Source of the DNA: Blattabacterium cuenoti
GTDB lineage: Bacteria; Bacteroidota; Bacteroidia; Flavobacteriales; Blattabacteriaceae
DNA: 64,000 bases
NCBI RefSeq assembly: GCF_014251995.1
Contig: NZ_CP059205.1
Span: forward strand, 186,001-250,000
Direction of reading: 5' to 3'
This document shows, in pieces, positions 37,022-44,583 of the stretch. A program made the position numbers and the translations under genes. The notes under the pieces were generated by a model, which was not told the DNA's origin, did no database searches, and saw only the letters and a list, made by a program, of their open reading frames with translations. The stretch's first letter is position 1. The number at the start of each line of letters is the position of its first letter.

Positions 37022-37674
37022 TAAAAAAAAGATTTTTTTATATAAAAAAATTGATTCCGAAAAATGTAAAAATTGTAGCAGTTTCTAAAAATCAAGATAA
37101 TTCTTCTATAGAAGAATTATATAAATTAGGACATAGAGATTTCGGAGAAAATTATGTTCAAGAAATGGTTAAAAAATATGAAACGTTACCGAAAGATATT
37201 CGTTGGCATATGATAGGAAATATTCAAAATAATAAATTAAAATATATAATTCCTTTTATTCATTTAATTCATAGTATTAAAAAAATAGAACAAATTAAAA
37301 GAATAAATCATATTGCCTCTAAATATAATAAAATTGTTAATTGTCTTTTGCAAATAAAAATTTGTAATGAACAAAGTAAGACTGGAATGAATTATCAAGA
37401 GTCTCAAAAAATATTAGAAAGTGAAACTTATAATTCAATGCATAATGTTAAAATAGTAGGATTAATGGGAATGGCTTCTTTTCAAAAAGAATTATTAAAA
37501 ATACATAATGAATTTTCGTATTTACATACTTTATATAAAAAGTACAAGAAAAAATATGGCCATTATATACTTTCTATGGGAATGAGTCAAGATTATAAAA
37601 TTGCAATAAAATATGGAAGTAATCTTGTAAGGTTAGGTACTATTTTATTTGGAAAAAGATTTAATCTACAATAG
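37018..37674 (+). CDS. YggS-family PLP-binding protein
   Basis: Member of the PLPBP family, which binds pyridoxal phosphate and helps B6 homeostasis but has no known catalysis. The 218 residues form a single TIM-barrel-like domain with the PLP lysine in IVAVSKNQ, HRDFGENYVQEMVKKYE, IRWHMIGNIQNNKLKYI, LMGMASF, LSMGMSQDYKIAIKYGSNLVRLGTILFG. Overlaps serC by 4 bp. Its end overlaps the convergent trpA stop by 14 bp. Confidence 0.93.
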   Translation: MIKKRFFYIKKLIPKNVKIVAVSKNQDNSSIEELYKLGHRDFGENYVQEMVKKYETLPKDIRWHMIGNIQNNKLKYIIPFIHLIHSIKKIEQIKRINHIASKYNKIVNCLLQIKICNEQSKTGMNYQESQKILESETYNSMHNVKIVGLMGMASFQKELLKIHNEFSYLHTLYKKYKKKYGHYILSMGMSQDYKIAIKYGSNLVRLGTILFGKRFNLQ

Positions 37675-38434
37675 ATTTTATGTATTTTTTAATACTTTCT
37701 TCTAAATTATTTTTATTTAATGATTGAATAAAAGAACTTCCAATAATTCCTCCATTCGCATATTGACATGAAAAATTAAAAGTTTCCTTATCTTTTATTC
37801 CAAAACCAATTAATTTCGGAGTACTTATAGGTAATTTTTTAATTTTTTCAAAAAAAGAAATTTGTTCTTTTCCAAAGAAATCGACAATTTTTCCTGTTGT
37901 TGAATTAGAAGAGACTAAATATAAAAATCCATTAGTTATTTGACTTAAAAAAAGGATTCTAGAAGAATCCGTTTGTGGAGTAACTAGGAATATCATTGAT
38001 AATGAATATTTTTTAAACAAATTTTGATATTTATTTATGAATAAGTTAACAGGAAGATCTGGAATAATTAATCCTGATACTCCTGATTTTTTACAATTTT
38101 CCAAGAAATTTTTTTCTCCAAACTTGTAAAGTTGGTTATAATATCCCATTACAATAATAGGAACCGTCATTTTATTTTTTAATTCTTTTATTTGAGAAAA
38201 TAAAAGTGAAAGATTCATTCCATTTTTTAATGATATTTTATTACTATTTTGAATGACTGTGCCATCTGCTAAAGGATCAGAATAAGGAATTCCTACTTCT
38301 ATTAAATCCACAGGAAGATTTTGTAAGGTATTAATTATTTTTGTTGTACTATTTATTTTTGGAAATCCAGCTGTAAAATAAATGCATAATATTCTACTAT
38401 TCTTTCTTTTAAATAAATCATTTATTTTATTCAT
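37661..38434 (-). CDS. trpA: Tryptophan synthase alpha chain
   Basis: Cleaves indole-3-glycerol phosphate to indole, which is channelled to TrpB. The 257-residue TIM barrel has LIEVGIPYSDPLADGTVIQNSNKISLKNG with the catalytic Glu and Asp, GLIIPDLPVN, and IGFGIKDKETF. Last gene of the trp operon, overlapping trpB by 8 bp and tail-to-tail with the YggS-family gene by 14 bp. Confidence 0.96.
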   Translation of the reverse strand: MNKINDLFKRKNSRILCIYFTAGFPKINSTTKIINTLQNLPVDLIEVGIPYSDPLADGTVIQNSNKISLKNGMNLSLLFSQIKELKNKMTVPIIVMGYYNQLYKFGEKNFLENCKKSGVSGLIIPDLPVNLFINKYQNLFKKYSLSMIFLVTPQTDSSRILFLSQITNGFLYLVSSNSTTGKIVDFFGKEQISFFEKIKKLPISTPKLIGFGIKDKETFNFSCQYANGGIIGSSFIQSLNKNNLEESIKKYIKSIVD

Positions 38435-39629
38435 CGTAAGATAGATTTTTTGTTAAAAATTTTTCATAAACATTAATATCCTTGTCTCCTCTCCCTGATA
38501 AAATCACAACAACAGTATCTTCTTTTTTAAAAGAAATTTTTTTTAATGAAGCTAATGCATGAGCACTTTCTAAAGCTGGAATAATTCCTTCAGATCTTAT
38601 CAATTCATATCCTTCTCTTAAAGCTTCTTTATCTGTAGAGTATAAAAATTTAACACGTTTTTTAATAAAAAGATTAGCAAACATAGGTCCTATTCCAGGA
38701 TAGTCTAATCCAGGAGATATAGAATAAGCAGGAATAACTTGCCCATCTTCGTTTTGCAATAAAAAAGTCATACTTCCATGTAATATTCCTTTTGATCCAC
38801 AATGGATAGATGCGGCAGTTTTTTTTGTTTTTATTCCATGTCCTGCAGCTTCTACTGCTATAAGATTAACAGAATCATTATCTAAGAAATGATAAAAAGA
38901 TCCTGCAGCATTACTACCTCCTCCTATGCAAGCGATTACATAATTAGGATAACAAGATCCATACATTTCTTTTAATTGTATTTTAATTTCTTCACTGATA
39001 ACAGATTGAATATCAGCAACCATTTGAGGATAAGGATGTGGACCAACTGTAGATCCTATTAAATAATAACTTTCTGGATGATTAATCCAGTAACGAATAG
39101 CTTCATTTACTGCGTCTTTTAATGTCTTATCTCCACTACAGACTGGAATAACTTTAGCTCCAAGAGATTTCATTCTCAGAACATTAGTATATTGACGATT
39201 TATATCTGTTTCTCCCATGAAAATAACACATTTTAAATCCATTAATGCACAAACAGTAGCTGTAGCAACTCCATGTTGTCCCGCACCTGTTTCTGCAATA
39301 ATTGTTTTTTTATTTAATTGTTTTGCTAATAATGATTGACCTATAGCATTATTAATTTTATGGGATCCTGTATAATTTAAGTCTTCTCTTTTAAAAAAAA
39401 TTTTGGTTTTATATTTTTTAGAATATTTTTTACAAAAAAATAGAGGGGTCGGTCTACCTACATAATTTTTTAATATTTTTTTGTATAATGTTTGAAATTG
39501 AACACTTCTAATAAAATTTTTATAATTTTTCTGTAATTCTTTTATATTGTTATATAACATTTCAGGAATAAAAGAACCTCCGAATTCTCCATAATATCCA
39601 TTATCATCGACAAAAAATTTATTTTTCAT
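38427..39629 (-). CDS. trpB: Tryptophan synthase beta chain
   Basis: PLP enzyme that condenses indole with serine to give tryptophan. The 400 residues include GEFGGSFIPEMLY, the PLP lysine in NYTGSHKINNAIGQSLL (Lys91), AETGAGQHGVATATVCALM, and IACIGGGSNAAGSFY for phosphate binding. Length is standard. It overlaps trpF by 4 bp and trpA by 8 bp. Confidence 0.97.
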   Translation of the reverse strand: MKNKFFVDDNGYYGEFGGSFIPEMLYNNIKELQKNYKNFIRSVQFQTLYKKILKNYVGRPTPLFFCKKYSKKYKTKIFFKREDLNYTGSHKINNAIGQSLLAKQLNKKTIIAETGAGQHGVATATVCALMDLKCVIFMGETDINRQYTNVLRMKSLGAKVIPVCSGDKTLKDAVNEAIRYWINHPESYYLIGSTVGPHPYPQMVADIQSVISEEIKIQLKEMYGSCYPNYVIACIGGGSNAAGSFYHFLDNDSVNLIAVEAAGHGIKTKKTAASIHCGSKGILHGSMTFLLQNEDGQVIPAYSISPGLDYPGIGPMFANLFIKKRVKFLYSTDKEALREGYELIRSEGIIPALESAHALASLKKISFKKEDTVVVILSGRGDKDINVYEKFLTKNLSYDE

Positions 39630-40258
39630 GATTCTCTTATTTTTTTAATAAATTTATTAAGTAAAAAATTATCTTTTCTTCCTGGAAAAATTTCAAATTT
39701 ACTGTTTAGATCAATCCCAAATATTTTTGGATGTAAGAATTTTTTAATTTTTTCAAAATCATTAATTCCAATTCCTCCACTTAAAAAAAATGGAGTTTTA
39801 AAATTATACTCTTCAAGTTTTTTCCAACAAAACTTTTTTCCACTTCCCCCATAATTAATTGTATTACTATCAAATAAAAAATAAGTACAAAAAGGAATAT
39901 AATCTATGGTATTTTTAAAAGAGAAAAAATTATCTATTCTAAAAGATTTAATTATCCTTAATTTTTTTTTGAATAATTGTTTACAATAAACAGAATTTTC
40001 TGTTCCATGTAATTGAATAAAATCTAATTCATTATTTTTACTTATTCTCAGCACATTTTCTTCTGATTCATTCACAAAAACTCCAACCCTTAATATTTTT
40101 TTATCTATTATGTTTTTGGGTATAGAAAAATTATATCCAACAAATCTAAGAGATTTAGGATAAAATATAAATCCCATAAAATCGGGATACAAGTCAGAAA
40201 TTTTTTGTATGTGGAATTTCATTCCACATATTTTTATTTTTAATAATTTTTTTTCCAT
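39626..40258 (-). CDS. trpF: Phosphoribosylanthranilate isomerase
   Basis: Amadori rearrangement of phosphoribosyl anthranilate. The 210-residue barrel starts KIKICGMKF with the catalytic Cys, then FMGFIFYPKSLRFVG, RVGVFVNESEENVL, FIQLHGTE, LFDSNT with the catalytic Asp, and FLSGGIGINDFEKI. A separate TrpF (not fused to TrpC) is normal for Bacteroidetes. It follows trpC with no spacer. Confidence 0.95.
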   Translation of the reverse strand: MEKKLLKIKICGMKFHIQKISDLYPDFMGFIFYPKSLRFVGYNFSIPKNIIDKKILRVGVFVNESEENVLRISKNNELDFIQLHGTENSVYCKQLFKKKLRIIKSFRIDNFFSFKNTIDYIPFCTYFLFDSNTINYGGSGKKFCWKKLEEYNFKTPFFLSGGIGINDFEKIKKFLHPKIFGIDLNSKFEIFPGRKDNFLLNKFIKKIRES

Positions 40259-41074
40259 TTAAGAAAATGATAATAAAGATTTCACAAATATTTCGCAAGC
40301 TTTTCCAGGATTTTCCTTTTTCATAAAATATTCTCCTATTAAAAAACCTTTAAATCCTTGTTTTTTTAATTCAATAATATAATTAATATTATCAATTCCA
40401 CTTTCTGCAATTTTTGTATATCCTTCAGGAATTTTTTTGGATAATTTTAAACAATTTTTGAAATCTAAATTAAAAGTTTTTAGGTTTCGATTATTGATTC
40501 CTATGATATCTAAATTTTCAGTTATTTTATCTGTTTCAACTTCATCATGTATTTCTAAAATGATTTCTAAACCAATACTCTTTGCAAGTCTAGAAAAATT
40601 TTTTATTTGATTTTTAGTAAGAATATTAGCAATTAATAAAATAACATCTGCTCCTATAGCTTTAGATTCTAAAATTTGATATTCATCTATGATAAATTCT
40701 TTTCTTATTATTGGAATAGATATTGAAGAACGTACTTTTTTTATAAATTCATTTTTTCCAGAAAAAAATTTTTGATCTGTAAGTATAGATATTCCACTTA
40801 CTCCTGATAATTCATAATCTTTTATTATTGTTTCCATTACAATTGGATTATCTATTATTTTTGATGATAATGACTTATTTATAATTCCTTTAGATGGAGA
40901 TCGTAATTTAAACTCTGAAATAATTCCACTTTTTTTTTCCTTTAGTTTTTTAACTAATGAAAAAGGATTTCTTTCAAAGAAAAATGTTTTTTCAAGTTTA
41001 TTTACAGGATTTAAAAATTTTCTTTCATATACTTCTTTTTTTTTGAAAAAAACTATTCTTTCAAGAAGATTCAT
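40259..41074 (-). CDS. trpC: Indole-3-glycerol phosphate synthase
   Basis: Ring closure to indole-3-glycerol phosphate. The 271 residues contain ISEFKLRSPSKGII with the catalytic Lys, SGVSGISILTDQKFFSG, IIRKEFIIDEYQILESKAIGADVILLIA, IIGINNRNLKTFNLD and IAESGI. Complete catalytic set. It overlaps trpD by 4 bp. Confidence 0.96.
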   Translation of the reverse strand: MNLLERIVFFKKKEVYERKFLNPVNKLEKTFFFERNPFSLVKKLKEKKSGIISEFKLRSPSKGIINKSLSSKIIDNPIVMETIIKDYELSGVSGISILTDQKFFSGKNEFIKKVRSSISIPIIRKEFIIDEYQILESKAIGADVILLIANILTKNQIKNFSRLAKSIGLEIILEIHDEVETDKITENLDIIGINNRNLKTFNLDFKNCLKLSKKIPEGYTKIAESGIDNINYIIELKKQGFKGFLIGEYFMKKENPGKACEIFVKSLLSFS

Positions 41075-42075
41075 AAACTCAATAATTTTTTAAGAATATT
41101 TTTTGCTTTTCCACTTTTTAAAGATTGTTTTGCTTTATCATAATTGTTTTCAAGACTATCTTTATTCATTAAGCTTAATGCAAATGTAGCATTAATCAAT
41201 GAAACTTCGTTTTGAACTGAGCTTCCTTCTCCTGATAAAATCTTAATAAAGATACGGATATTTTCTTCTGTATTTTTTCCTCCTTTTAATTCATTAGGAT
41301 TTATTTTTTTTTTAAATTTACCTGAAATTCTTAATAATTTTTCAACAGAAAAATATTGCTCACCTCTTGAAGAATAAAATTTTGTATCATTAGTAAGTGT
41401 TACTTCATCATAACCATCTAAACTATGAACTATAGAATAGTTATTATCTGTATTTTGATACATATAATAATATATTCTGGAAGTTTCCAAGTTATTTACT
41501 CCTAAAAATTGATTTTTTGGATTAGCTGGATTTATAATTGGACCTAAAATATTAAAAATAGTTTTAATTCCTAACCTTTTTCTTTCTTCAGTAAAACTGT
41601 TTAAAACTGGATGAAACATAGGAGCGTGTAAGTAACAGATTCCAACTTTTTCTAATTGATTTCTTAATTTTTCTTCATTATTTGTAAAATGATATCCTAA
41701 TCCTTTTAATAAATTAGAAGATCCAGTTATTGATGATGAACCAAAACTTCCATGCTTAATTACTTTTTCTCCAGTTCCTGCTACTATAAAACATGCTAAA
41801 GTTGAAATATTAAATGTATTTTTTTTATCACCACCTGTTCCTACTATGTCAATAGCATTAAATTCTGAAAAATTTATTTTTATACATAATTCCATAAAAG
41901 CTTGTCTAAATCCAATCAATTCTTCTAGAGTAGGATTTCTCATGTTATATACAGTTATTATAGCTATAGCTTGAGTTTTGTTAATTTTTCCTTTTGATAA
42001 TTCTATAATAATATTTTTAGCTTCTTTTCTTGTTAATGTTTTTTCTAAAAAAAGATTTTCTAATATTCTTTTCAT
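41071..42075 (-). CDS. trpD: Anthranilate phosphoribosyltransferase
   Basis: Transfers the phosphoribosyl group from PRPP to anthranilate. From the ATG at 42075 (MKRILENLFLEKTLTRKEA) it is 334 residues. Signature blocks are FNAIDIVGTGGDKKNTFNISTLACFIVAG, KHGSFGSSSITGSSNLLKGLG and FNILGPIINPA. An upstream ATG at 42096 would add MVENRIK and overlap trpG by 19 bp; the shorter start gives a 2-bp gap and fits the family better. Confidence 0.95.
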   Translation of the reverse strand: MKRILENLFLEKTLTRKEAKNIIIELSKGKINKTQAIAIITVYNMRNPTLEELIGFRQAFMELCIKINFSEFNAIDIVGTGGDKKNTFNISTLACFIVAGTGEKVIKHGSFGSSSITGSSNLLKGLGYHFTNNEEKLRNQLEKVGICYLHAPMFHPVLNSFTEERKRLGIKTIFNILGPIINPANPKNQFLGVNNLETSRIYYYMYQNTDNNYSIVHSLDGYDEVTLTNDTKFYSSRGEQYFSVEKLLRISGKFKKKINPNELKGGKNTEENIRIFIKILSGEGSSVQNEVSLINATFALSLMNKDSLENNYDKAKQSLKSGKAKNILKKLLSL

Positions 42076-42077
42076 CT

Positions 42078-42659
42078 TTATTCTATTTTCAACCAATTAC
42101 TTATAATTTTTTCTCCATATGGAGTTAAAATAGATTCTGGGTGAAATTGTACGCCTCGAACATTATAAAATTTATGACGTAGAGCCATGATTTCTCCATT
42201 GTCTCCAATAGCTGTAATTTTGAGTTCTTTAGGAAAGTTATCCGGAGATATAATCCATGAATGATAACGACCAACTTGAATTTTTTTAGGTAACTTATGA
42301 AAAAGAATTTCTTTTGGATCTATGATTTTAATAAAGCTAGATATTCCATGATAAACTTTTTTTGTATTTAGAAGAGTAGCTCCAAACACTTCTCCTATAG
42401 CCTGTTGACCTAAACAAACTCCAAAAATGTTTTTAGTAGAAGCAAAAGTTTTTACCAAAGGTTTCAAAATGTTCGCTTCATCGGGAATTCCTGGACCTGG
42501 AGAAAGAATAATTTTATTATATTGTTCTATTTCAGAAAGTTTTATTTCATTGTTTCTGGATACTCGTACGGAAGTTTTTGTTAATTTTTTTACGACATAA
42601 ACAAGATTATAAGTAAAAGAATCATAATTATCTAAAATTAGTATTTGTTCTTTATTCAT
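42078..42659 (-). CDS. trpG: Anthranilate synthase, glutamine amidotransferase component
   Basis: Provides ammonia to TrpE. The 193 residues have LILDNYDSFTYNLVY at the N-terminus, the loop SPGPGIPDEA, the nucleophile in FGVCLGQQAIGEVFG and the His-Glu pair in GVQFHPESILTPYG. Catalytic triad is intact. It begins 9 bp after trpE. Confidence 0.96.
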   Translation of the reverse strand: MNKEQILILDNYDSFTYNLVYVVKKLTKTSVRVSRNNEIKLSEIEQYNKIILSPGPGIPDEANILKPLVKTFASTKNIFGVCLGQQAIGEVFGATLLNTKKVYHGISSFIKIIDPKEILFHKLPKKIQVGRYHSWIISPDNFPKELKITAIGDNGEIMALRHKFYNVRGVQFHPESILTPYGEKIISNWLKIE

Positions 42660-42668
42660 AAAATTACA

Positions 42669-44090
42669 TCATATACTTTTAGCTAAATTTATAGCTTTAA
42701 ATAAAGCCATAAGTTTATTGTTTACTTCTTCTAATTCTTTTTTTTCTTTAGAATCAGAAACAACTCCTGCTCCGGCTTGAAAAAAAAGATTATTATTTTT
42801 ACTTATAAAAGAACGGATAATTATGGCTGTATTAATACATGAATTATTTAATCCAAAAAATCCAATAGATCCACCATATATTCCTCTATGTTGATTTTCT
42901 ATTTTATCTATCAATTCCATTGCTTTATATTTCGGAGCTCCTGATAAAGTTCCTGCAGGAAAAGTATCTCCAAATACTTTTATAACGGATGTATTATTTT
43001 CCAGTTTTCCTGATACTTTAGAAACCATATGAAGTACATGAGAAAAAACCTGAATTTCTTTGAATTTTTCTACTTTTACGTCATAAGAATTTTTACTTAA
43101 ATCATTTCTTGCTAAATCTACTAACATAATATGTTCCGCATTTTCTTTAGGATTATTTGAAAGATTTTCAGATAATTTTTTATCTTTCTTCTCATTTTTT
43201 GATCTTCGTATAGTTCCTGCTATTGGATTAATATAAGCTACTTGATTATTGATAATTAATTGTGATTCCGGAGAAGCGCCAAATAATTTATAATTTCCAT
43301 AGTCAAAATAAAAAAGATATGGAGAAGGATTTATAAAACGTAAAGCACGATATACATTAAATTCATCTCCTAAAAATTTTTGTTGATATTGACGAGATAA
43401 TACTATTTGAAATACATCACCTCGTAAACAAGCTTTTATCCCTTTAGAAACCATTTTTTTATATTCTAAATCTGTTACATTTGAAAAATGATCTCCTATA
43501 GGATTGAATGGAAAAAAGGAAAAGTTCTTTTTTCTTACAAGTTTTAATAACTTATTAATATTAGTTTTTCTTTTAATATTAACAAATCGATGTTCAATTA
43601 ATTGAATATTGTTTTTATTATGATGGAACACAATCAAATTTCTATAAAAACTAAACCGTATTTTGGGAAGATTATATATCTTTTTAATTGGAGCATAAAA
43701 TTGAATATTTTCAAAGTATTGAATGCTATCATAAGAAATGTATCCATATAATCCGGAATAGGAAGAATAAGGACTAAAATCATTATCATTCTCAAATTTT
43801 TTGAAAAAATCTTCAATAAGAATTTTTACATCTAATTGGTTGGATATAGAAATATGTTTATAAACACAGTTTGGATATAATATTTGCAATCTATTTTCGT
43901 TCAGAATAAATTCAGAAACTGGATTAATGCAAAGAATAGAATAGTAATTCTTATTGTTATTCTGATAGTCAGAATATTCTAATAACATTGTATTTGGAAA
44001 AGTATCTCTCAGTTTTAAATATAATTCTATAGGTGTAGTACTATCAGATAAAATTTCTTTGTGGATAGTTCTAAAATTAAATTTAAACAT
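42669..44090 (-). CDS. trpE: Anthranilate synthase component I, with altered feedback motif
   Basis: Converts chorismate and ammonia to anthranilate, the committed step of tryptophan synthesis. The 473 residues carry the chorismate-enzyme blocks GDVFQIVLSRQYQQKF, INPIAGTIRR, EHIMLVDLARNDLSK, SHVLHMVSKVSGKL, DTFPAGTLSGAPKYKAME and FFQAGAGVVSDS. The N-terminal motif that in other TrpE proteins reads LLES, the tryptophan-binding site, is LLEY here (residues 36-39). Ser-to-aromatic change at this position in Salmonella abolishes feedback inhibition. First gene of trpEGDCFBA, preceded by a leader with a terminator-like hairpin. Confidence 0.96.
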   Translation of the reverse strand: MFKFNFRTIHKEILSDSTTPIELYLKLRDTFPNTMLLEYSDYQNNNKNYYSILCINPVSEFILNENRLQILYPNCVYKHISISNQLDVKILIEDFFKKFENDNDFSPYSSYSGLYGYISYDSIQYFENIQFYAPIKKIYNLPKIRFSFYRNLIVFHHNKNNIQLIEHRFVNIKRKTNINKLLKLVRKKNFSFFPFNPIGDHFSNVTDLEYKKMVSKGIKACLRGDVFQIVLSRQYQQKFLGDEFNVYRALRFINPSPYLFYFDYGNYKLFGASPESQLIINNQVAYINPIAGTIRRSKNEKKDKKLSENLSNNPKENAEHIMLVDLARNDLSKNSYDVKVEKFKEIQVFSHVLHMVSKVSGKLENNTSVIKVFGDTFPAGTLSGAPKYKAMELIDKIENQHRGIYGGSIGFFGLNNSCINTAIIIRSFISKNNNLFFQAGAGVVSDSKEKKELEEVNNKLMALFKAINLAKSI

Positions 44091-44114: not shown

Positions 44115-44142
44115 AAAAAAGGCCGTCCTAAAGACAAGCCTT
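44115..44142 (-). promoter_or_regulatory. Terminator-like hairpin in the trp operon leader
   Basis: On the minus strand AAGGCTTGTC pairs with GGACGGCCTT (nine pairs, one bulged T) around a TTTAG loop, and the run of six T includes the stem end. It lies 24 bp before the trpE ATG. It is the only GC-rich element in this very AT-rich intergenic region. It may attenuate transcription of the operon. No leader peptide with Trp codons is visible. Confidence 0.65.
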
Positions 44143-44583
44143 AGCAAATATTTTGAGATAAAATTTATAATAATTATTACTCAATTAATTAATACCATTT
44201 ACTTTATTTCAGAAATGACATTTACCTTAAATTGCAAAGATATATAAAATTTTTAATTATCCAGTATATATGGAATAAATGTAAAATTTAGATTATTATG
44301 TGTTACACGTTACAATAAAAAATACAAAAAATATTTTTTCTTGTATTCTTTAAATTGAAAAATTTTGAATTACAATATTTCAGTTTTTTTAAACTTAAAA
44401 ATCTATTGATAATAAAATTAGATTTGAATTTTAAAAAATTACGTATTGAAAGATTTTTTTGAAAAAAATACATTTTTCATAATATATTTTTACTTAAAAT
44501 TGCAATAAAATTTTAATTTTTGAATTTTTAGAATAAAAATGTAATTTTATCCACATAAACAAACAAAAAACAAAAAATAAATA
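44143..44583. other. Long AT-rich intergenic region between trpE and the glucosaminidase gene
   Basis: With the hairpin just described this is the longest non-coding stretch of the window (44091-44583). The minus-strand side holds a possible trp promoter at 44235-44242 and two very short leader frames, neither with Trp codons. From about 44250 to 44583 there is only AT-rich sequence with A- and T-runs and no RNA gene that I can fold or recognise. It should also contain the promoter of the plus-strand gene at 44584, but no TAnnTTTG is apparent there. Confidence 0.5.
44235..44242 (-). promoter_or_regulatory. Putative -7 box of the trp operon
   Basis: The minus strand reads TATCTTTG, matching TAnnTTTG, about 145 bp upstream of the trpE ATG. 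A start about six bases later gives a leader of about 85 bases before the hairpin. No ideal -33 TTG was found. Confidence 0.4.

Follow-up and report, generated by a model that had tools for sequence, protein, structure and literature searches.

Recurrent replacement of the LLES serine of anthranilate synthase TrpE and absence of a Trp-codon leader peptide in Blattabacterium

The anthranilate synthase component I (TrpE) of the cockroach symbiont Blattabacterium cuenoti carries a tyrosine at site 39, in place of the serine of the tryptophan-binding motif LLES, and the same site is changed recurrently across the genus. As read from sequence, Blattabacterium probably lacks the normal brakes on tryptophan synthesis, both layers of feedback control having been dismantled. 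The TrpE encoded in the window, that is, the whole stretch of 64,000 nucleotides analyzed here from a genome of 628,453 bp, is likely to be an active anthranilate synthase subunit in which feedback control by tryptophan is no longer maintained. Free-living Bacteroidota sense tryptophan in two layers: a leader peptide, whose run of Trp codons governs a terminator hairpin before trpE, and the allosteric pocket of TrpE, formed by LLES-X10-S together with NPSPYLF. As the sequences show, the leader peptide is absent from Blattabacterium, and the LLES serine and the X10 loop drift around a fixed catalytic machinery. Tyr39 and a loop longer by one residue would fill or distort the Trp-binding space, and the enzyme, by homology to the S40F allele, would keep running at tryptophan levels that stop a normal enzyme. 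Selection for feedback may have been relaxed because the host drains tryptophan or because the supply is set by the host through its control of symbiont numbers. The case for deregulation gains from two features that the preliminary description does not mention, the loop insertion and the absence of the leader peptide.

The comparison comprises 44 full-length TrpE sequences out of 49 Blattabacterium genomes, 132 TrpE sequences of free-living Bacteroidota (54 of the same order), and six other insect symbionts of the family. A search mostly confined to open-access literature returned no paper describing a loss of TrpE feedback in Blattabacterium.

Allosteric and catalytic sites of TrpE in the window

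In the window, trpE is the first gene of a contiguous minus-strand trpE-G-D-C-F-B-A operon and is directly adjacent to trpG (Table 1). The fold search alone was ambiguous with regard to PabB, with PabB of B. subtilis ranking first; the sequence and the surrounding operon identify the gene as trpE. The TIGR00564 score of 405 bits lies below the cut-off of 517.7, and all genomes sampled from the order score below it as well.

Table 1. Features of the trp operon and its upstream region in the window (positions counted from the first letter of the window).
Feature	Position	Strand	Remarks
trpE, anthranilate synthase component I	42669..44090	-	473 aa; catalytic/chorismate-site residues checked all intact
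Codon 39, TAT (Tyr)	43974..43976	-	aligned to E. coli TrpE Ser40 (LLES)
Remodelled allosteric motif LLEY-X11-S, residues 36-51	43938..43985	-	norm LLES-X10-S; motif definition from PMC6437058
One-residue insertion in X10 loop	43953..43961	-	from alignments; exact place within residues 44-46 ambiguous
NPSPYLF, residues 254-260	43311..43331	-	second half of Trp pocket, intact; from alignment
Terminator-like hairpin AAGGCTTGTCTTTAGGACGGCC + TTTTTT	44115..44142	-	-9.8 kcal/mol; Trp-rich leader ORF absent upstream
TATCTTTG, promoter-like -7 box	44235..44242	-	resembles the Bacteroidota consensus
TAAATGTCATTTCT, element near leader start	44211..44224	-	recurs in most Blattabacterium
trpG-type glutamine amidotransferase subunit	42078..42659	-	named from sequence and operon context
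trpD	41071..42096	-	named from sequence and operon context
trpC	40259..41074	-	named from sequence and operon context
trpF	39626..40258	-	named from sequence and operon context
trpB	38427..39629	-	named from sequence and operon context
trpA	37661..38434	-	named from sequence and operon context

The open reading frame and the alignment confirm the LLEY of the preliminary description and its TAT codon; the residues read L36, L37, E38, Y39, S40, and D41, and the flanking LLE is invariant. The preliminary description also rightly placed this residue at the serine of LLES, within the motif that binds tryptophan. Ser40, Pro291, Met293, Val453, and Tyr455 are the Trp contacts in Serratia according to a review (PMC10464499), and S40F is a feedback-resistant allele of E. 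coli TrpE (PMC3316586). By this homology, it is likely that Tyr39 lowers inhibition by tryptophan.

Compared with the LLES-X10-S motif of Trp-feedback-regulated TrpE, the window has LLEY-X11-S. The spacing from E38 to the second Ser is 12 residues, as opposed to 11 in all 132 free-living sequences and in E. coli. Across Blattabacterium, the same loop length ranges from 8 to 20, and it is 4 in two family members. An altered X10 loop length occurs in the window, in 10 other congeners, and in four of the six other family symbionts (two of these being without the motif Ser) but never in free-living Bacteroidota. The TrpE sequences L133 and L134, from other symbionts of the family (genomes G051 and G052), have neither the serine of LLES nor more than a small part of the X10 loop (LLLE-KICASI and LLFE-KICASI), a loss of the motif even more radical than that of Blattabacterium.

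The other half of the pocket, NPSPY(M/L)F, is present in the window as NPSPYLF and is retained in nearly all Blattabacterium; the second motif Ser is found in all 44, and the pocket residues I409 and F411 are nearly invariant. Hence, the pocket is not wholly free, and these residues may be kept for folding, catalysis, or residual Trp binding. Their near-invariance counts against dismantled feedback control as the best explanation.

Ten catalytic and chorismate-site residues, G292, T293, E316, E319, H354, S383, G442, E452, E455, and K459 (G328, T329, E358, E361, H398, S427, G485, E495, E498, and K502 in E. coli), are present in the window and invariant in the 44 sequences. The AlphaFold model of the window TrpE has a mean pLDDT of 87, the loop block 41-50 being the weakest part with 61, and its fold matches 1i1q, 1i7s (Trp-bound), and 5cwa. 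Because the catalytic residues are kept and the model matches TrpE structures, the enzyme should be active and its inhibitor site altered.

Leader region of the trp operon

A short upstream ORF with at least two Trp codons was found in 127 of 130 free-living genomes versus none of the 44 Blattabacterium. The typical free-living leader peptide reads NNTWWWNN, and a terminator, for example AAGGCTTGTCATCACGACAAGCCTTTTTTT, comes after it. Two adjacent Trp codons precede trpE in 118 of 130 free-living genomes as opposed to 0 of 44 Blattabacterium (1.2% of shuffled sequences), and none were seen upstream of trpE in the six other family members. The trp attenuators of the E. coli trpL type and of free-living Flavobacteriales share with Blattabacterium the hairpin, AAGGCTTGTC...GCC followed by a U run, and its place; they differ in having the Trp-codon leader peptide.

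The window hairpin, AAGGCTTGTCTTTAGGACGGCCTTTTTT, matches the free-living terminator hairpin in sequence type and place. The window thus contains the terminator hairpin with a U run and is devoid of a leader ORF with consecutive Trp codons. Blattabacterium has thus kept the terminator and lost the Trp sensor, the leader peptide being absent from every genome while a hairpin of the same type is in place. Judging by this match, the window hairpin is a presumptive relic of a trp attenuator terminator. A terminator-like hairpin at -5 kcal/mol or better is found in about 31 of the 44 genomes, which is odd if transcriptional control is fully gone and thus speaks against the preferred explanation. 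A terminator scan with stricter stem rules did not list the window hairpin, and an Rfam scan of the 64-kb window for a known leader element returned tRNAs only.

The -7 promoter box of Bacteroidota has the consensus TAnnTTTG, and a similar box lies further upstream (Table 1). In most congeners, the element TAAATGTCATTTCT, which includes the near-palindrome AAATGTCATTT, follows closely after the promoter-like box. It was rejected as a genome-wide operator; the genome holds one exact copy, and therefore there is no sign of a regulon.

Site 39 across Blattabacterium and its relatives

The preliminary description had Ser at this position in most TrpE proteins, which holds for free-living Bacteroidota (S 128, N 2, G 2, with neither Tyr nor Phe) in the same-order and broader samples alike. 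It does not hold for Blattabacterium, where Ser is found in 15 of 44 sequences, the others being F 10, Y 7, T 5, I 4, N 1, M 1, and L 1. Tyr was also looked for as a residue common in feedback-sensitive flavobacteria and was found in none of the 132 free-living Bacteroidota. The six other family symbionts have S in two and C in two, the motif being deleted in the remaining two. The near relatives of the window have S (G024), F (G042), and I (G036). A change from TCT to TAT by a single base, as put forward earlier, agrees with the codons of the Ser-bearing congeners, which are TCT (14) or TCA (1).

Site 39 has changed at least 19 times within the genus, and Tyr was gained at least six times, in both the rpoB-only tree and an rpoB+trpE tree built without the motif codons; the F/Y state changed 12 times. 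Among the 115 TrpE sites with a conservation of 95% or more in free-living relatives, site 39, named beforehand, ranks first by number of changes in the genus. Zero changes occurred at 86 of these sites, and 10 of 11 other conserved Ser sites retain Ser in 44 of 44 Blattabacterium. Two further positions, G298 (codon 43199-43197) and H220 (43433-43431), are nearly or fully invariant in free-living relatives; within Blattabacterium they show 14 and 11 changes, respectively. Since Ser or Thr is kept at site 39 in 20 of the 44 genomes, desensitization need not hold in every Blattabacterium lineage, and this retention is a further point against dismantled feedback as the best explanation.

The whole gene is under strong purifying selection (omega 0.062), and site 39 has an omega of about 1. 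A home-made codon grid model gave maximum-likelihood values of alpha = beta = 0.3 at this site and a posterior of 0.06 for positive selection, which is thus unsupported. With equal site rates and this posterior, the codon pattern indicates relaxed constraint, adaptation not being demonstrated. The preliminary description saw a change that would suit an overproducing symbiont; as a single adaptive change in one strain this is unsupported, the site being hypervariable genus-wide. An adaptive desensitization, in which Tyr39 and other bulky replacements were favored for the additional tryptophan they make available to the host, is unlikely. It would account for the recurrent convergence on Phe and Tyr (17 of 29 non-Ser sequences), for Phe being the classic resistant allele, and for a focused change that leaves most other pocket residues intact. 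However, AT-biased mutation from TCT in a neutral simulation already yields Phe and Tyr most often, with a mean F+Y of 11 and 17 or more, the observed number being 17, in 92 of 500 runs. The narrow replacement spectrum also favors adaptation. In the simulation, Ala, Pro, Cys, Val, Asp, or a similar residue is expected in approximately seven genomes, whereas none was observed, and the absence of Ala, Pro, Cys, Val, and charged residues was matched in 1 of 500 simulations, the grouping being post hoc. Because replacements avoid residues that neutrality predicts, some constraint persists at site 39, and this narrowness weighs against the preferred explanation as well.

Relaxation at site 39 probably predates the genus. 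The site-39 Ser is encoded by AGY in 127 of 128 free-living sequences and by TCN in Ser-bearing Blattabacterium, Karelsulcia, and L135; a switch between the two Ser codon boxes must pass through another residue or take a double change, and Cys (TGY) occurs in two family members. Other conserved Ser sites are free of such a switch, site 430 being AGY in 44 of 44 Blattabacterium. The family member G053, with a genome of about 1.3 Mb, has Cys at site 39 of its TrpE (L131) and no Trp-rich leader, which suggests that deregulation set in early.

Specificity of the change and comparison with known systems

A neutral change under continued regulation, with a pocket that tolerates Tyr39 and an enzyme still inhibited by tryptophan at physiological levels, is improbable. 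It is in line with the retained second motif Ser and NPSPYLF. The site is moreover not strictly Ser, since Thr occurs in Buchnera (S 10 and T 5 in 15 plasmid TrpE), whose allosteric site is described as conserved (PMC5054487). However, aromatic residues occur in none of the 132 free-living and none of the 15 Buchnera sequences, E. coli S40F is resistant, and in the window the loop is altered too.

A general decay of proteins in AT-rich symbionts, not directed at regulation in particular, is very unlikely. The genome is small, AT-rich, and fast evolving, and 5 of 49 congeners have a lost or broken trpE, but the low omega of the gene and the unchanged majority of conserved sites leave site 39 as an extreme outlier, and Karelsulcia and Buchnera, with reduced symbiont genomes too, retain S/T. 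The ACT motif of PheA (GSL...KIQSIP) is kept in 29 of 30 congeners examined, and for this reason the loss looks specific to the tryptophan brake and not general to allosteric sites. PheA of G043 (L269) has the altered ACT motif TKIQYIIENPW, and among the 49 congeners prephenate dehydratase (PF00800) had no match in G015. A sequencing or assembly error at codon 39, for which one base would be enough to make TAT, is practically negligible, with Tyr in six further congeners, Phe in ten, and an intact reading frame.

Over-provision of amino acids by nutritional symbionts is an open question, for which textbook Buchnera keeps the site and amplifies the gene. A broader proposal, plausible but tentative, is that point changes at one residue have, repeatedly and by convergence, put the allosteric brake of a single-copy TrpE out of action in cockroach symbionts that had already lost the leader peptide, as opposed to the amplification of Buchnera, and that the hairpin was possibly recruited to other control. 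The role of the residue at site 39 has been worked out by enzymology, and the genus offers a natural allele series there (S, T, F, Y, I, L, M, N); together with the loss of the transcriptional sensor, this makes feedback loss in symbionts directly testable with purified enzymes.

The closest counterpart is the S40F class of E. coli and Salmonella TrpE, in which the LLES serine is likewise replaced by a bulky residue with an intact catalytic site, the same Phe being found in 10 Blattabacterium. That class was selected with analogues, whereas the Blattabacterium changes are natural, recurrent, and genus-wide; the window has Tyr plus a loop insertion, known from sequence. In M. tuberculosis, Trp inhibition is abolished by missense changes within or near the LLES-X10-S module (PMC6437058), although the sites hit there include His170 and the second Ser, which is invariant in Blattabacterium. 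Buchnera, like Blattabacterium, is a nutritional symbiont of insects and has to make more Trp than it needs itself, but it is described as overcoming inhibition by amplifying trpEG and keeps S/T at a conserved allosteric site (PMC5054487), whereas Blattabacterium alters this site in a single-copy trpE. Natural loss of Trp inhibition is also known from plants. The anthranilate synthases of Ruta and tobacco are naturally feedback-insensitive (PMC11439500), and in Rutaceae this is tied to high demand for products of the Trp pathway; plants have at least two AS alpha genes, as opposed to the single trpE of the window Blattabacterium. As to the congeners with trpE lost or broken, the gene was undetected in G001, G026, G041, and G043, and G014 carries a pseudogene (L128, 4029-4151) with LLGSKN as the only motif read.
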